A stretch of DNA of 64,000 nt from Burkholderiaceae bacterium. GTDB taxonomy: Bacteria; Pseudomonadota; Gammaproteobacteria; Burkholderiales; Burkholderiaceae_E. The translations under genes and the position numbers were made by a program. Below the pieces are notes generated by a model. The model worked only from the letters and a program-made list of their open reading frames with translations. It was not told the origin of the DNA and made no database searches. Positions 29,945 through 38,722 of the stretch are shown here, piece by piece. The stretch lies in the NCBI GenBank assembly GCA_021463505.1, contig JAJTYR010000012.1:1-64000 (forward strand), given 5' to 3'. How positions within the stretch are numbered: the stretch's first letter is position 1; every line of letters begins with the position of its first letter.

Positions 29945-31075
29945 ATGATCCATCGCATCACCGTGCTCGGCGCCGGCTTCGCCGGCCTGTCCGCCGTGCG
30001 CGAACTGCGCCGGCGCGATCCGCAGGTCGCGATCACGCTGGTTGCGCCGCGCCCCGAGCTGCACTATCTGCCGGGCATCATCTGGATTCCCGGCGGCCTG
30101 CGCCGGCGCGAACAGCTGGTGGTGCCGCTGGGCCGCTACTTCGAGCGTATGCGCGTGCAGTTCGAGGCTGCCGAGGTCACCGGCCTGCGCGACGGTGGCC
30201 GTGTGGTCCAGACCAGCGCTGGCGAAGTCGTCAACGATGCGCTGGTGATTGCCACCGGCGGGCGCTTCATCAGGAAGCTTGCGGGCATCGAACACGCGAT
30301 CACGCCCTGCGAGGGCATCGCGGCCGCCGAGCGCATCCGCGACCGGCTGCGCGCGATGCAGGGTGGCACGATCGCGCTCGGGTTTGCCGGCAACCCGAAG
30401 GAGCCGGCGGCGATGCGCGGCGGGCCGATGTTCGAGTTCCTGTTCGGCATCGACGCGCAGCTGCGCCGCGAGGGTCGGCGCGAGCGCTTCGAGCTGGTGT
30501 TCTTCAGCCCCGCACCGCAACCGGGGAACCGTCTCGGCCCGAAGGCGGTCGCGCACCTGCTGGCCGAGATGGTGCGGCGCGGCGTGCGCACGCACCTCGG
30601 GCACAAGCTGGTGCGCTTCGATGCCGATCGGGTGGTCACCGAGGGCGGCGAGTTCCCCGCCGACCTGATCCTGTTCATGCCGGGGATGACCGGCAACGCC
30701 TGGTTCGATGCCACCGATCTGCCGCGTTCACCCGGCGGTCTGGTGCAGGCCGATGCGCAGTGCCGCGTGCCGGGTCGCGAGCGCGTCTACGTGGTCGGCG
30801 ATTCGGGCAGTTTTCCCGGGCCGGACTGGCTGCCCAAGCAGGCGCACATGGCCGATCTGCAGGCTGCGGCGGCAGCAGTCAATCTGCTGGCCGACCTGCG
30901 GGGCAACGCCTCGAACGAGACCTTCAAGGTCGAACTGGTGTGCATCGTCGATGCGATGGATCGCGGCACGCTGGTGTTCCGCAACCAGCGACGCAACCTG
31001 CTGCTGCCGTCGGCGCGGGTGTTCCACTGGGCCAAGCGGGCCTTCGAGTGGAACTACCTGCGGCGCTATCGCTGA
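29945..31075 (+). CDS. FAD-dependent oxidoreductase, Sqr/NDH-2-like
   Basis: 376-residue flavoprotein with the FAD motif VLGAGFAGLSAVRELR at 6-21, a second nucleotide-binding region, and VYVVGDSGSFPGPDWLPKQAHMADLQA, the FAD/quinone segment typical of sulfide:quinone reductase and type II NADH dehydrogenases. Cys in ITPCEG (~118) and in ELVCIVD (~332) could be the redox pair of an SQR-like enzyme. C-terminal amphipathic region, no signal peptide. Divergent from the SenA-like gene. Sulfide oxidation is inferred, not shown; a non-SQR quinone reductase is possible. Confidence 0.72.
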   Translation: MIHRITVLGAGFAGLSAVRELRRRDPQVAITLVAPRPELHYLPGIIWIPGGLRRREQLVVPLGRYFERMRVQFEAAEVTGLRDGGRVVQTSAGEVVNDALVIATGGRFIRKLAGIEHAITPCEGIAAAERIRDRLRAMQGGTIALGFAGNPKEPAAMRGGPMFEFLFGIDAQLRREGRRERFELVFFSPAPQPGNRLGPKAVAHLLAEMVRRGVRTHLGHKLVRFDADRVVTEGGEFPADLILFMPGMTGNAWFDATDLPRSPGGLVQADAQCRVPGRERVYVVGDSGSFPGPDWLPKQAHMADLQAAAAAVNLLADLRGNASNETFKVELVCIVDAMDRGTLVFRNQRRNLLLPSARVFHWAKRAFEWNYLRRYR

Positions 31076-31659: not shown

Positions 31660-31687
31660 TTGCACAGGGGGCATGACTCGCTAGAAT
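31660..31687 (+). promoter_or_regulatory. clpS promoter, -10 box abutting the start codon
   Basis: TTGCAC (31660-31665) and TAGAAT (31682-31687) with a 16-bp spacer. The clpS ATG at 31695 lies only 7 nt past the -10 hexamer, so the transcript would begin at or next to the start codon and lack a ribosome-binding site. Confidence 0.6.
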
Positions 31688-31694
31688 GGGGTGC

Positions 31695-31999
31695 ATGGCG
31701 ACACGGCAGGAACCCTCCACCGTTCTCGAGCGCAAGGAGAGGCGGCTCGAGCCGCCGCCGATGTACCAGGTGATGTTGCTCAATGACGACTTCACCCCGA
31801 TGGAGTTCGTGGTAAGCGTGTTGCAGAGGTTTTTCGGCATGGGCCGGGAGAAGGCGACGCAGGTGATGCTCAGAGTGCATCGGGAAGGGCGCGGCGTCTG
31901 CGGGGTGTATCCGCGCGACGTTGCCACCACGAAGGTCGAGCAGGTCAGCAGTTACTCACGCCAGCATCAGCATCCGCTGCAGTGCGTGATGGAGGAAGC

Positions 32000-32003
<4 letters not shown>
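31695..32003 (+). CDS. clpS: ATP-dependent Clp protease adaptor ClpS
   Basis: Adaptor that hands N-degron substrates to ClpAP. 102 residues. [21 protein letters not shown] holds the Asn-Asp substrate pocket, and the ClpA-binding end [18 protein letters not shown] is intact. ATG 31695 is preferred; ATG 31686 overlaps the -10 element. Its stop overlaps the clpA start by 4 nt (ATGA). Confidence 0.96.
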
Positions 32004-34309
<2,306 letters not shown>

Positions 34310-34478: not shown

Positions 34479-35129
34479 GTGAGGTCGATCCGCGGGTTTT
34501 TTCGCGCGCTGCGCAATCCTCCGAAACCCGGCACCACCGTCGGGCGCCTCGTGGGCGCCGGGGTCGGCGCCGCGGCGATCGCGGCGATCGCGATCTACGC
34601 GGTGGTGTTCTATCCGCTGCTCGAAGTCACCAACTCCACCGAATTCTGCGTCTCCTGCCACTCGATGGAAGCCACCGTGTACCAGGAGTACCGGAAGTCG
34701 GCGCACTACTCGAACCCGTCCGGCGTGCGTGCCGGCTGCCCTGATTGCCACGTCCCGAAGCAACTGGGCCCGAAGCTGGTCGCCAAGGTGCGCGCCGCGA
34801 AGGACGTCTGGCACGAGATGCTGGGCACGATCGACACCCCGGAGAAGTTCGAGGCGCATCGCTGGCGCATGGCCAATGCAGTCTGGTCGATGATGGAGCG
34901 CACCGATTCGGTCACCTGCCGTTCCTGTCACGCGTGGGATTCGATGGACCTCGAGGGGCAGGACCGCATCGCCAGGCGCAGGCATCGCTCGGCGATGGAC
35001 GAAGGGCGCACCTGCATCGAATGCCACAAGGGGCTGGTGCACAGGCGGCCGCGGGCGCCGGACAGCGACGGCGCGTCGGAGCGCGGCGCGGACGGCGGCG
35101 CGCCAGGTCAGGCCGGCGGTTCCGGCTGA
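34479..35129 (+). CDS. NapC/NirT-family tetraheme cytochrome c, membrane-anchored
   Basis: 216-residue quinol-linked multiheme cytochrome. One membrane helix (about 23-48) anchors a periplasmic domain with four CXXCH heme sites at 57-61, 87-91, 147-151 and 179-183 (CVSCH, CPDCH, CRSCH, CIECH). Such proteins pass electrons between the quinone pool and periplasmic enzymes. GTG start at 34479; the C-terminal ~25 residues are low-complexity. It is followed by FccA- and FccB-like genes, so the likely role is linking them to the quinone pool. No nap or nir catalytic subunit is nearby. Confidence 0.9.
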   Translation: MRSIRGFFRALRNPPKPGTTVGRLVGAGVGAAAIAAIAIYAVVFYPLLEVTNSTEFCVSCHSMEATVYQEYRKSAHYSNPSGVRAGCPDCHVPKQLGPKLVAKVRAAKDVWHEMLGTIDTPEKFEAHRWRMANAVWSMMERTDSVTCRSCHAWDSMDLEGQDRIARRRHRSAMDEGRTCIECHKGLVHRRPRAPDSDGASERGADGGAPGQAGGSG

Positions 35130-35178
35130 AGCCGGGGCATGACCGGGTGTTTTCGGTAACCAGGGAGGAGGAGACGCA

Positions 35179-35823
35179 ATGAGGAAGACTGCATTGGGGG
35201 CCGCGCTGCTGCTGGCGGGCGCGGCGTGGGCAGGCGGCGCCGCGGCGCAGGGGGTGCCAGTGTCGGTGCTGGCGGGCAACTGCGTGGGTTGTCACGGCAT
35301 CGACGGCGTCAGCGGCGGACCGGCCACGCCGAGCATCGCCGGCATGTCGAAGGTCTACTTCGTCAACGCGATGCTGTCTTACAAGTACGGCAAGGACCTC
35401 GAGAAGATCGAGGCGGCTGCGAAGAAGCTGAAAATCGACCCGGACGACGTCGAGGGCCATGAGCGTCTTGCGACCGTGATGGACCGCATGGCCAAGGGCT
35501 ACAGCGACGAGGAGATCGGTGCGCTGGCCGACTACTTCGCCGGCAAGCGTCACGTGGCGGCGATCCAGCCGTACAACGCGGCGCTGGTCGCCAGGGGCAA
35601 GCGTGTGCACGACGACGCCTGCGAGAAGTGCCATGAGGACGGCGGTCGCAAGGGCGATGGCGCGGGCGTGCTGGCCGGGCAGTGGATGCCGTACCTGAAT
35701 CACTCGATCATGGATTTCAACGCCGGACATCGCGGGATGCCGAAGAAGATGCGCGCCAACATGAAGGACCTGACCGACAAGGACTTCGAGGCGCTGGTGC
35801 AGTTCTACGCCAGCCAGAAGTGA
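35179..35823 (+). CDS. Diheme cytochrome c subunit, FccA/cytochrome c4-like
   Basis: 214-residue secreted c-type cytochrome. Sec signal peptide at 1-24 (cleavage near AAAQG), heme sites CVGCH at 35-39 and CEKCH at 148-152, with axial Met candidates in [12 protein letters not shown] and HRGMPKKM. The two-domain layout fits the diheme subunit of flavocytochrome c sulfide dehydrogenase or cytochrome c4. It lies 13 bp before an FccB-like flavoprotein, with strong GGAGGAGGA upstream of its own ATG. Confidence 0.85.
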
Positions 35824-35836
35824 GGGGGACAAGACC

Positions 35837-37138
35837 ATGACGAACATTGCACGCAGGGACTTCGTCCTCGGCACCGGCGCGGCCGGCCTCGCGCTGGCGG
35901 CGCCGGGTTTCGCGATCGCGCAGGGCAGGAAGAAAGTGGTCGTCGTCGGCGGCGGCATTGGCGGGTGCACGGTGGCCAGTTACGTGCGTCTGGGCGATCC
36001 GTCGATCGAGGTGACGCTGATCGAGCCCAACAAGACCTATCACACCTGCTTCATGAGCAACGAAGTGATCGGCGGCGAGCGCAAGCTCGAGTCGATCGCG
36101 TTCGGCTACGACGGCCTGCGCAAGCGCGGCGTGAACGTGGTGCACGACACGGTGACCGGTATCGATGCCGCCGGGCGCACCGTGAAGACCGCCGGCGGCG
36201 GCAGCTACGGCTACGACCGGCTGGTGGTGGCGCCCGGGATCGACTTCAAGTGGACCGGCATCGAAGGCTACGACCAGGCGGCGGCCGAGAAGATCCCGCA
36301 CGCCTGGAAGGCCGGCGCGCAGACCGTGCTGTTGCGCAGGCAGCTCGAGGCGATGCGCGACGGCGGCACCGTGGTGATCTGCCCGCCGCCCGCGCCGTTC
36401 CGCTGCCCGCCCGGACCGTACGAGCGCGCCAGCCTGATCGCGGGCTACCTGCAGCGGCACAAGCCGAAGTCGAAAGTGCTGATCGTCGACGCCAGCTCTG
36501 CCTTCTCGAAGCAGGGGCTGTTCATCGGCGGCTGGAAGGCGCTGTACGGCTACGGAACGCCGAACGCGCTGATCGAATGGATCAGCAGCGAGAAGACCGA
36601 CGGCGGCATCGGCAAGCTCGACGCCGCGAAGCTCACGGTCACCACGAAGTTCGGCGACACGCACAAGGCCGACGTGCTCAACCTGATCCCGGCGCAGAAG
36701 GCGGGCAGGATTGCCACCGACGCCGGGCTCACCGGCACCGGCGACTGGTGTCCGGTCGACATGGCAACGTTCGAGTCGAAGATCCACAAGGGAATCCACG
36801 TGATCGGCGATGCGGCGGTGGCCTCGACCATGCCCAAGTCGGGTTACTCGGCGAACTCGCAGGCCAAGGTGACCGCGGCGGCCGTCGTGGCATTGCTGAA
36901 GGGGCAACAGCCGGGCACGCCGAACTACGTCAACACCTGCTACAGCGTGGTGGGCAAGGACTACGGCATCTCGGTGGCCAACGTCTACCACCTTGGGCAG
37001 GACGACAAGGGCGCGCAGGTCATCAAGGCGGTCTCGGGCGGCGTGAGCCCGGCCAATGCGTCGGCCGAATACCGGCGTCGCGAGGTCGAGTACGCGCACA
37101 GCTGGTTCACGAACATCACTCACGACGTGTTCGGCTGA
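35837..37138 (+). CDS. fccB: Flavocytochrome c sulfide dehydrogenase, flavin subunit
   Basis: 433-residue periplasmic FAD protein, predicted to oxidise sulfide. Twin-arginine signal ([19 protein letters not shown]), FAD motif [17 protein letters not shown], and [13 protein letters not shown] with Cys71 at the place of the covalently FAD-linked Cys in Allochromatium FccB. Cys190 (FRCPPGPYE) and Cys368 ([12 protein letters not shown]) fit the redox disulfide pair. The C-terminal FCSD domain is complete. It forms a unit with the diheme and tetraheme cytochromes upstream, and a terminator follows. Confidence 0.9.
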
Positions 37139-37205: not shown

Positions 37206-37289
37206 CGCGTTCCTGCCGCAAAGACCGTGCTCGCAGCGTCACCGACGCGGCTGCCGGGGCAGCCGCTTGCGATGTCGTATAGTTCACGC

Positions 37290-37790
37290 ATGCTTCGACG
37301 CAGCGATTCGATCCTCCTGCTGGGTGCCGTGCTGGCGGTGGGCGCGGTCGGCGTTGCGCTCGTGCTGCAGCACGCGTTCGGCATCGAGCCCTGCGCCTGG
37401 TGCACCTTCCAGCGGTTGCTGTTCCTGCTGTTCGGCGCATTCGCGGTGCTCGGCCGGCTCGCGCGCGGCTCGCGCGCTGCGCTTGCGGCCTCGTCGGCGC
37501 TGGCCGTGGTGGCGGCGCTCGGCGGGTTGTGGGCTGCGCTGCACCAGCAGTTCGTTGCCGCACAGAGCCTGTCGTGCGCATTCACTTTCGCCGATCGGGC
37601 GCTGATGAACCTGCGGCTCGACGAAACCCTGCCGTGGCTGTTCGAAGCCACCGCCTCGTGCCGCGACGCCAATGCGCCGCTGCTCGGCGTGCCGTTCGCG
37701 CTGTGGAGCGCGACGCTGTTCGTGCTGCTGGTGCTGCTTGCGGCGCGCGCCGCATGGATGGCGCGCACCGCGCCGGAGAAACCCGCATGA
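37290..37790 (+). CDS. dsbB: Disulfide bond formation protein B
   Basis: Inner-membrane protein that reoxidises DsbA and passes electrons to quinones. 166 residues with four membrane helices. First Cys pair Cys35-Cys38 (CAWC), second pair Cys96 and Cys124, matching DsbB topology. ATG 37290 is preferred; the -10-like TATAGT at 37278-37283 lies only 6 nt upstream, and an in-frame ATG at 37272 would sit inside that promoter. Overlaps tal by 4 nt. Confidence 0.93.
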
Positions 37791-38722
37791 ACGCACTCGA
37801 CCAACTGAAGCGCTTCACCACGGTCGTCGCCGACACCGGCGACTTCAATGCGATGCGCGCCTACGCGCCGCGTGACGCGACCACCAATCCGACGCTGATC
37901 CTGAAGGCGGCGCAGAAGCCCGAGTACCGGGCGCTGCTCGCGCAGACGGTGGCTGCGCATCCGGACGAGACGGCAGCCGGCGTCTGCGACCGGCTGCTGG
38001 TGCGCTTCGGGCAGGAGATCCTGTCGATCGTCCCGGGCCGCGTCTCCACCGAAGTCGACGCACGGCTGTCGTTCGACGGGGAGGCGACGCTCGCCAGGGC
38101 GCGCCGCATCGTCGGGCTCTACGACGAGGCCGGCATCGGCCGCGAGCGGGTGCTGATCAAGGTGGCCTCCACCTGGGAAGGCATCCGCGCGGCCGAGGTG
38201 CTGGAGAACGAAGGCATCCACTGCAACCTGACGCTGCTGTTTTCGTTCGCCCAGGCGGTGGCCTGCGCCGACGCCGGCGTGACGCTGATCTCGCCGTTCG
38301 TCGGACGCATCTTCGACTGGCATCGCAAGCGCGACGGCGTCGATTACGCGCCCGACGACGACCCGGGCGTGCAGTCGGTGCGGCGCATCTACGGCTACTT
38401 CAAGAAATTCGGCTACCCCACCGAGGTGATGGGAGCGAGCTTTCGCAATACCGGTCAGGTGCTGGCGCTGGCCGGCTGCGATCTGCTCACGATCAGCCCG
38501 GAACTGCTGGAAGCGCTGCGCGACGCCACGCAGGCGGTCGAGCGCAGGCTCGATCCGGCGCGCGCGCGCGAAGAGGCGGTGGAGCGTGTGCGCTTCGACG
38601 AGAAGCAGTTCCGCTGGGCGCTCAACGAAGACGCGATGGCCACCGAGAAGCTGGCCGAGGGCATCCGCCATTTCGCGGCCGACGTGGTGAAGCTGGAAGC
38701 GCTGGTGGCCGCGGCGCGCTGA
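37787..38722 (+). CDS. tal: Transaldolase
   Basis: Pentose-phosphate pathway enzyme transferring a dihydroxyacetone unit between sugar phosphates. 311 residues, subfamily 1 (TalB-like). Asp16 in [20 protein letters not shown]-like segment ([14 protein letters not shown]) and the Schiff-base Lys125 in [28 protein letters not shown] and [12 protein letters not shown] are conserved. Coupled to dsbB by an ATGA overlap. Confidence 0.95.

Follow-up and report, generated by a model that had tools for sequence, protein, structure and literature searches.

A three-gene locus of a Burkholderiaceae bacterium, napC-fccA-fccB, appears to encode a sulfide dehydrogenase together with a dedicated electron partner on the membrane side, through which the electrons of sulfide would reach quinone; for this reading as a whole we see about as much reason for belief as for doubt. 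That the NapC-type cytochrome and FccAB are partners we consider very probable, while the direction of electron flow, towards quinone, is close to an even call. The locus lies at positions 34479-37138 of the window, by which we mean the whole stretch of 64,000 nucleotides that we analyzed.

All three ORFs of the locus are complete, lie on the + strand and are tightly packed, with intergenic gaps of 49 and 13 bases; we take them as one operon, presumably co-transcribed. The napC-type gene (34479-35129, +) starts with GTG and encodes 216 amino acids with four CXXCH motifs, a tetraheme protein of the NapC/NirT family and of the type linked to Fcc. It is followed by fccA (35179-35823, +), which encodes a diheme cytochrome of 214 amino acids with two CXXCH motifs and an insert of approximately 24 residues (residues ~73-96; 35395-35466, +) that is not found in FccA of the A. 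vinosum type, and by fccB (35837-37138, +), whose 433-amino acid product has FCSD domains and a Tat-type motif. The first-pass annotation had reported this order, with a tetraheme NapC/NirT gene first, a diheme FccA next and an FccB exported by Tat last, which ORFs, profile matches and motifs bear out, and had called the cluster fused, which it is not, as the gaps separate three distinct genes. The flanking genes are ordinary: clpS (31686-32003) and clpA (31982-34309, +) upstream, and a dsbB-like gene (37272-37790, +) followed by a transaldolase gene (37787-38722) downstream. The Sqr-like flavoprotein noticed upstream in the same annotation is indeed SQR-like by sequence (29945-31075, +; match to 3hyv_A, E 2.8e-22). 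Approximately 3.4 kb, including clpS and clpA, separate the end of this FAD flavoprotein gene from napC; we therefore excluded it from the unit, and it probably lies outside.

Judged by sequence, the second and third genes are clearly relatives of FccAB, and the predicted enzyme is a flavocytochrome c sulfide dehydrogenase. FccB matches the Pfam domains FCSD_central (155 bits) and FCSD-flav_bind (89 bits) and is 62% identical to the A. vinosum protein 1fcd_A across 385 residues (E 5.6e-170). Its cysteines C71, C190 and C368 align with C42, C161 and C337 of 1fcd, which we take to be the FAD-binding and redox cysteines, and it carries RRDFV, presumably a Tat-type export motif. We rejected the alternative that FccB is an SQR, as it scores 569 bits as FCSD and 41 bits as SQR. 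FccA, with its two CXXCH motifs, provides the adjacent cytochrome subunit of an FccAB; it matches cytochrome c models in Pfam as well as 3vrd_A (E 4.5e-36) and 1fcd_C.

The NapC family comprises quinone-interacting membrane cytochromes, and the product of the first gene has the features of the NapC/NirT superfamily: a Cytochrom_NNT domain (216 bits, cut-off 24.1), four CXXCH motifs at residues 57, 87, 147 and 179 and a single predicted N-terminal membrane helix. Because it scores below the NCBIfam cut-offs for TorC (213 against 478 bits), the NapC/NirT subfamily (210 against 311), NapC (202 against 349) and NrfH (56 against 134), the names NapC, TorC and NrfH do not suit it, and we refer to it as NapC-type. 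In the AlphaFold2 model (mean pLDDT 75, pTM 0.54), a membrane-length N-terminal helix is predicted at residues 20-50, and K103 and D109 are predicted to lie on a helix at residues 96-114. When the model was used in a fold search, NrfH chains were the only high-probability matches (E ~0.006-0.008, query TM ~0.33). Profile alignment pairs M63, K103 and D109 with M49, K82 and D89 of NrfH, presumably the quinone-site residues of that protein. Our profile of Fcc-linked NapCs (A1) comprises 41 sequences, among which the four heme sites, K103 and D109 do not vary; in a wider set they are nearly invariant. The genome of the window also encodes a second, deep-branching protein of the NapC/NirT family (G000:C34:16954-17436, L002), which groups with L137 on the NapC tree, far from nearly all others.

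The first-pass annotation had proposed a search for the NapC-FccA-FccB order, and the link was found in all 9 genomes of the window's family with a close FccB, in 24 of the 87 FccB genomes of the class sample and in at least 106 of the 148 Chromatiales genomes with a listed NapC place. The class sample comprised 274 genomes, 87 with FccB-family genes and 95 with NapC/NirT-family genes, and we considered as linked those genes on the same contig and strand, within approximately 3.1 kb of each other. Chance adjacency of napC and fccAB can be rejected, as only 0.17 linked genomes were expected. NapC is upstream in 21 of the 24 linked genomes and downstream in 3, the gene orders were confirmed in sequence stretches from 23 linked class genomes besides that of the window, and the remaining 63 of the 87 FccB genomes are unlinked. 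We defined as Fcc-type the NapCs whose A1 score exceeds their PF03264 score by more than 25 bits (the pieces of split matches being summed in G102 and G219), a separation that is partly built in since at least 12 of the A1 sequences come from class-sample genomes. An FccB-family gene is present in 29 of the 32 class genomes with an Fcc-type NapC and in 58 of the 242 others (Fisher tests treat genomes as independent, though they are not, and some genomes repeat named loci). The class counts of 24 in 87 and 29 in 32 cover all 122 listed FccB places and selected NapC places, unlisted low-scoring PF03264 places falling outside them.

Within the window's family (74 genomes), 64 genomes have a relative of FccB. 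In 9 of these it is of the close type, with 81% identity or more to the FccB of the window. All 9 have a same-strand NapC located 0.75-1.0 kb upstream, with A1 scores of at least 266 bits, except for a partial match in G555 at 200 bits. None of the 55 family genomes with only a distant FccB, several of which are fragmented, has a match above 228 bits to the profile of Fcc-linked NapCs, and no weaker match lies on the contig of FccB. Among 210 Chromatiales genomes, a close FccB (E ≤1e-130) occurs in 161 and an Fcc-type NapC (E ≤1e-70) in 160: both are present in 144 genomes, NapC only in 16, FccB only in 17 and neither in 33. Hence 144 of the 160 genomes with the Fcc-type NapC have a close FccB, compared to 17 of the 50 without it, and the linked NapC genes, counted from lists of up to 150 places each, which makes 106 a minimum, lie 0.84-2.43 kb upstream of fccB. 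As the arrangement is found across much of Chromatiales, including A. vinosum, we rejected its restriction to Burkholderiales. The distinct three-gene form put forward in the first-pass annotation thus stands in part: the link is conserved and the cytochrome belongs to a quinone-interacting family, but the form is not peculiar to Burkholderiales.

To place the NapC-type proteins relative to each other, we built a tree of 119 NapC domains. It required at least 150 aligned positions and four hemes per row, which excluded L006, L067, L103, L104 and L105 among others; L156, which repeats the L016 gene, and identical NapC rows were left out as well, and L062 and L095 were labeled as Fcc-linked by hand. 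Some of the omitted Fcc-linked genes have a broken frame, with a TGA in L105 (G232) and split frames in L006 and L067, due to either decay or assembly error. In the tree, 62 of the 66 Fcc-linked NapCs cluster together with three ankyrin-linked NapCs and one other, with moderate support (80/90; the bootstrap is unsettled), and all 21 nap-linked NapCs fall apart from this group. The four Fcc-linked NapCs outside it (L044, L062, L092 and L107) suggest that FccAB may have recruited NapC partners on more than one occasion. The position of D109, which corresponds to D89 of NrfH, follows the same division. Asp occupies it in 65 of the 66 Fcc-linked NapCs, including 3 of the 4 outliers, and in all three ankyrin-linked ones, and Glu in 21 of 21 nap-linked NapCs and in both cases with FccA only. 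Of the 27 other NapCs, 23 have Glu; the 4 with Asp include E. coli TorC and L138, which falls inside the Fcc group.

The arrangement is also present in A. vinosum, where the FccB is 99% identical to 1fcd_A and the order on one strand is napC-ankyrin-fccA-fccB. In a transcriptome study, fccA (Alvin_1093) and fccB (Alvin_1092) rise by 7.45 and 6.18 log2 units on pyrite compared to sulfide, together with the uncharacterized Alvin_1094 (4.83) and with Alvin_1095 (5.39), which the text ties to a four-heme cytochrome of unresolved function and the table annotates otherwise (PMC11267869). Matched by position, Alvin_1094 would be the ankyrin gene and Alvin_1095 the NapC gene. Within the open-access literature that we searched, we met no report of the NapC-FccAB pairing, and that study alone mentions Alvin_1094 or Alvin_1095; subscription papers may hold an earlier mention of the pairing. 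FccAB of A. vinosum is described in another report as a soluble periplasmic pair that reduces soluble cytochromes c in vitro, and its role in vivo as unresolved because fccAB mutants oxidize sulfide at rates similar to the wild type (PMC3368242). A 2019 study that compared diverse bacteria, A. vinosum among them, states that the genes around fccAB are not conserved (PMC6382920). Contrary to that statement, in our wider sampling the context is conserved within the diheme type.

FccAB loci with NapC occur in two main versions. Starting from 129 FccAB pairs, we set aside the pairs with no NapC and less than 2.6 kb of upstream sequence, which left 118; identical FccA rows were dropped. NapC is upstream in 65 of them, 44 with an ankyrin gene and no FccA insert (defined as at least 103 residues between the FccA hemes), 16 with the insert and no ankyrin gene and 5 with neither; in another 5 pairs NapC is downstream, and in a single pair it has some other position in the locus. 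By the same cut-off, none of the 36 diheme pairs without NapC has the insert, with two intermediate cases at 99 and 100 residues. The insert was seen with NapC directly upstream and no ankyrin gene, except in L057, which falls outside the 118 with 2.1 kb of upstream sequence and has the insert and no NapC, and in L015, which has no upstream sequence. The window, itself not counted in the 118, represents the ankyrin-less, insert-type version, which its lineage shares with some others; its genome holds only a weak ankyrin relative, located elsewhere (34% identity). The split of 44 versus 16 is only suggestive of mutual exclusion between ankyrin gene and insert, because the insert changes only twice on the FccB tree, so that descent alone could explain the split, and the pairs were too few for the sign test. 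The insert may nevertheless replace the ankyrin protein. As for the FccB loci with a monoheme FccA (L058, L074, L078, L082, L083, L107 and L212-L217), NapC is nearby in 1 of the 12, L107, which is among the 5 pairs with NapC downstream.

In the mechanism that we propose, sulfide would be oxidized at the FAD and cysteine pair of FccB, electrons would move from FccB to the two hemes of FccA and on to the tetraheme NapC-type protein, and the latter would reduce quinone at its heme-1 site. In most of the linked relatives that we looked at, the gene of an exported ankyrin-repeat protein separates napC from fccA; it is missing in the lineage of the window, where the 24-residue insert of FccA may substitute for it in docking. 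We infer the physical complex, the direction of the electrons and the roles of ankyrin protein and insert from comparisons of genes and their products. A bolder model is tentative, and we would sooner doubt than back it: the linked diheme flavocytochrome c would work as a membrane-bound sulfide:quinone oxidoreductase complex NapC-(Ank)-FccA-FccB, of which the soluble enzyme of A. vinosum would be a fragment, with ankyrin protein and insert as alternative means of docking FccA to NapC.

We favor quinone reduction because the family binds quinone, the site is kept, many carriers of NapC-FccAB belong to what we take to be sulfide-oxidizing groups and cytochrome cM552 offers a precedent. The hemes of characterized NapCs have low potentials, so transfer from FccA to NapC would be uphill unless the Fcc type is tuned differently. 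Also counting against the proposed mechanism are the 63 FccB genomes of the class sample with no linked NapC, the Fcc-type NapCs that occur with no close FccB, the sulfide oxidation by fccAB mutants of A. vinosum and the reduction of soluble cytochromes c by its enzyme in vitro. If the flow were reversed, the NapC-type protein would oxidize quinol and electrons would run through FccA to FccB, which would reduce polysulfide or elemental sulfur or keep the enzyme poised. Such is the usual direction in NapC, NrfH and TorC, but the presumed physiology of the carriers and the transfer from sulfide to ubiquinone, which is downhill, argue against it, and we consider reversal unlikely. Both directions have been described for cM552 and its relatives: in one paper, cM552, itself a relative of NapC, links hydroxylamine dehydrogenase to the quinone pool in HURM, and a relative in Nautilia, in favor of reversal, is proposed to be a quinol oxidase, opposite to the role in ammonia oxidizers (PMC3701875). 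Another reading, which we consider rather unlikely, is that NapC, with the ankyrin protein where present, connects quinone with diheme cytochromes of the periplasm in general, those of the c4/FccA kind, FccAB being one client of several. Three of the 32 class genomes with an Fcc-type NapC (G067, G250 and G254) have no match to the FccB family, and their napC-ank faces a gene for a diheme cytochrome of the FccA/c4 kind (139-186 bits on the FccA profile), which indicates that another partner exists. Besides this pairing, seen in the FccB-less genomes of L199-L201, the stretches of L120 and L129 have napC adjacent to an FccA-like gene and contain no FccB, and the 16 Chromatiales genomes with NapC only point the same way. 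However, the NapCs of L120 and L129 carry Glu rather than Asp at the quinone site and fall outside the main group, and most listed Fcc-type NapC genes of Chromatiales adjoin fccAB. A similar diheme gene is found downstream of about a dozen FccAB loci too, for example L013:9221-9988.

NapC could also serve to tether FccAB to the membrane, with electrons still leaving to soluble cytochrome c. Membrane-bound forms of the enzyme are cited as published (Visser 1997, Kostanjevecki 2000), but the conservation of four heme sites together with K103 and D109 exceeds the needs of a tether, which makes this explanation quite improbable. We give hardly any credence to the last one, that NapC works for some reductase, of nitrate, nitrite or another kind, and neighbors fccAB by chance. 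It has in its favor the name of the family and the several genomes with more than one PF03264 gene; against it, the linkage recurs in many families, and NapB (PF03892) was detected in the E. coli positive control and in none of the 9 genomes of the window's genus that we searched. Together with the separation from all 21 nap-linked NapCs, the absence of NapB led us to reject borrowing from nitrate reductase. The first-pass annotation had reckoned with homologues found only with nap or nir systems and with an unconserved link; the analysis returned the opposite, with linkage in every close-FccB genome of the family and nap-linked NapCs apart.

Other multiheme proteins were observed in the stretches examined. 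An eight-heme protein of approximately 500-560 residues adjoins fccAB in Thiomargarita, Marithrix, Thiodiazotropha and related contigs, its gene lying upstream of fccA on the same strand in L063:5074-6762, L072:5310-6833 and L076:5284-6831 and on the opposite strand in L035, L037 and L040. The two proteins tested (L072 and L037) match Multi-haem_cyto (PF13447), which we take to be HAO-type, and the eight-heme protein may be a second multiheme partner of FccAB in those contigs. Matches to NapC/NirT also recur in frames of approximately 570-1000 residues in the class sample, and share one frame with an ethylbenzene-dehydrogenase-type domain (PF09459) in L131:5146-6918 and L149:1-2154.

A conserved partner with a quinone-site signature of its own would be a specific answer to where the electrons of FccAB go and, if true, would change the energy balances drawn up for many sulfur bacteria. 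The pairing also bears on the published statement that fccAB has no conserved context (PMC6382920).

Compared to known systems, the locus most resembles FccAB of A. vinosum (1fcd), with its 62% identical FccB, related diheme FccA and NapC-type and ankyrin genes upstream; unlike that enzyme, which is described as soluble, the window combines the absence of an ankyrin gene with an insert in FccA. We know of no NapC partner for the flavocytochrome c of Thiobacillus W5 or Ectothiorhodospira vacuolata. These enzymes are held at the membrane, as in the proposed complex, but are cited as having a monoheme FccA, a type that is linked to NapC in only 1 of 12 loci here. NrfH of NrfHA (2j7a, 2vr0) is in the same Pfam family, has one membrane helix and the Lys and Asp of the quinone site and was the sole fold match of high probability, but it feeds a reductase and the protein of the window scores below its NCBIfam cut-off. 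NapC of periplasmic nitrate reductase has the Pfam family and the heme count in common with it, and differs in the Glu at the position of NrfH D89 (21 of 21), in its separate place in the tree and in that NapB is absent from the 9 window-genus genomes. Finally, HURM (hydroxylamine dehydrogenase with cytochromes c554 and cM552) likewise has a relative of NapC on the quinone-reducing side of a periplasmic dehydrogenase, although both the dehydrogenase and its substrate are different.
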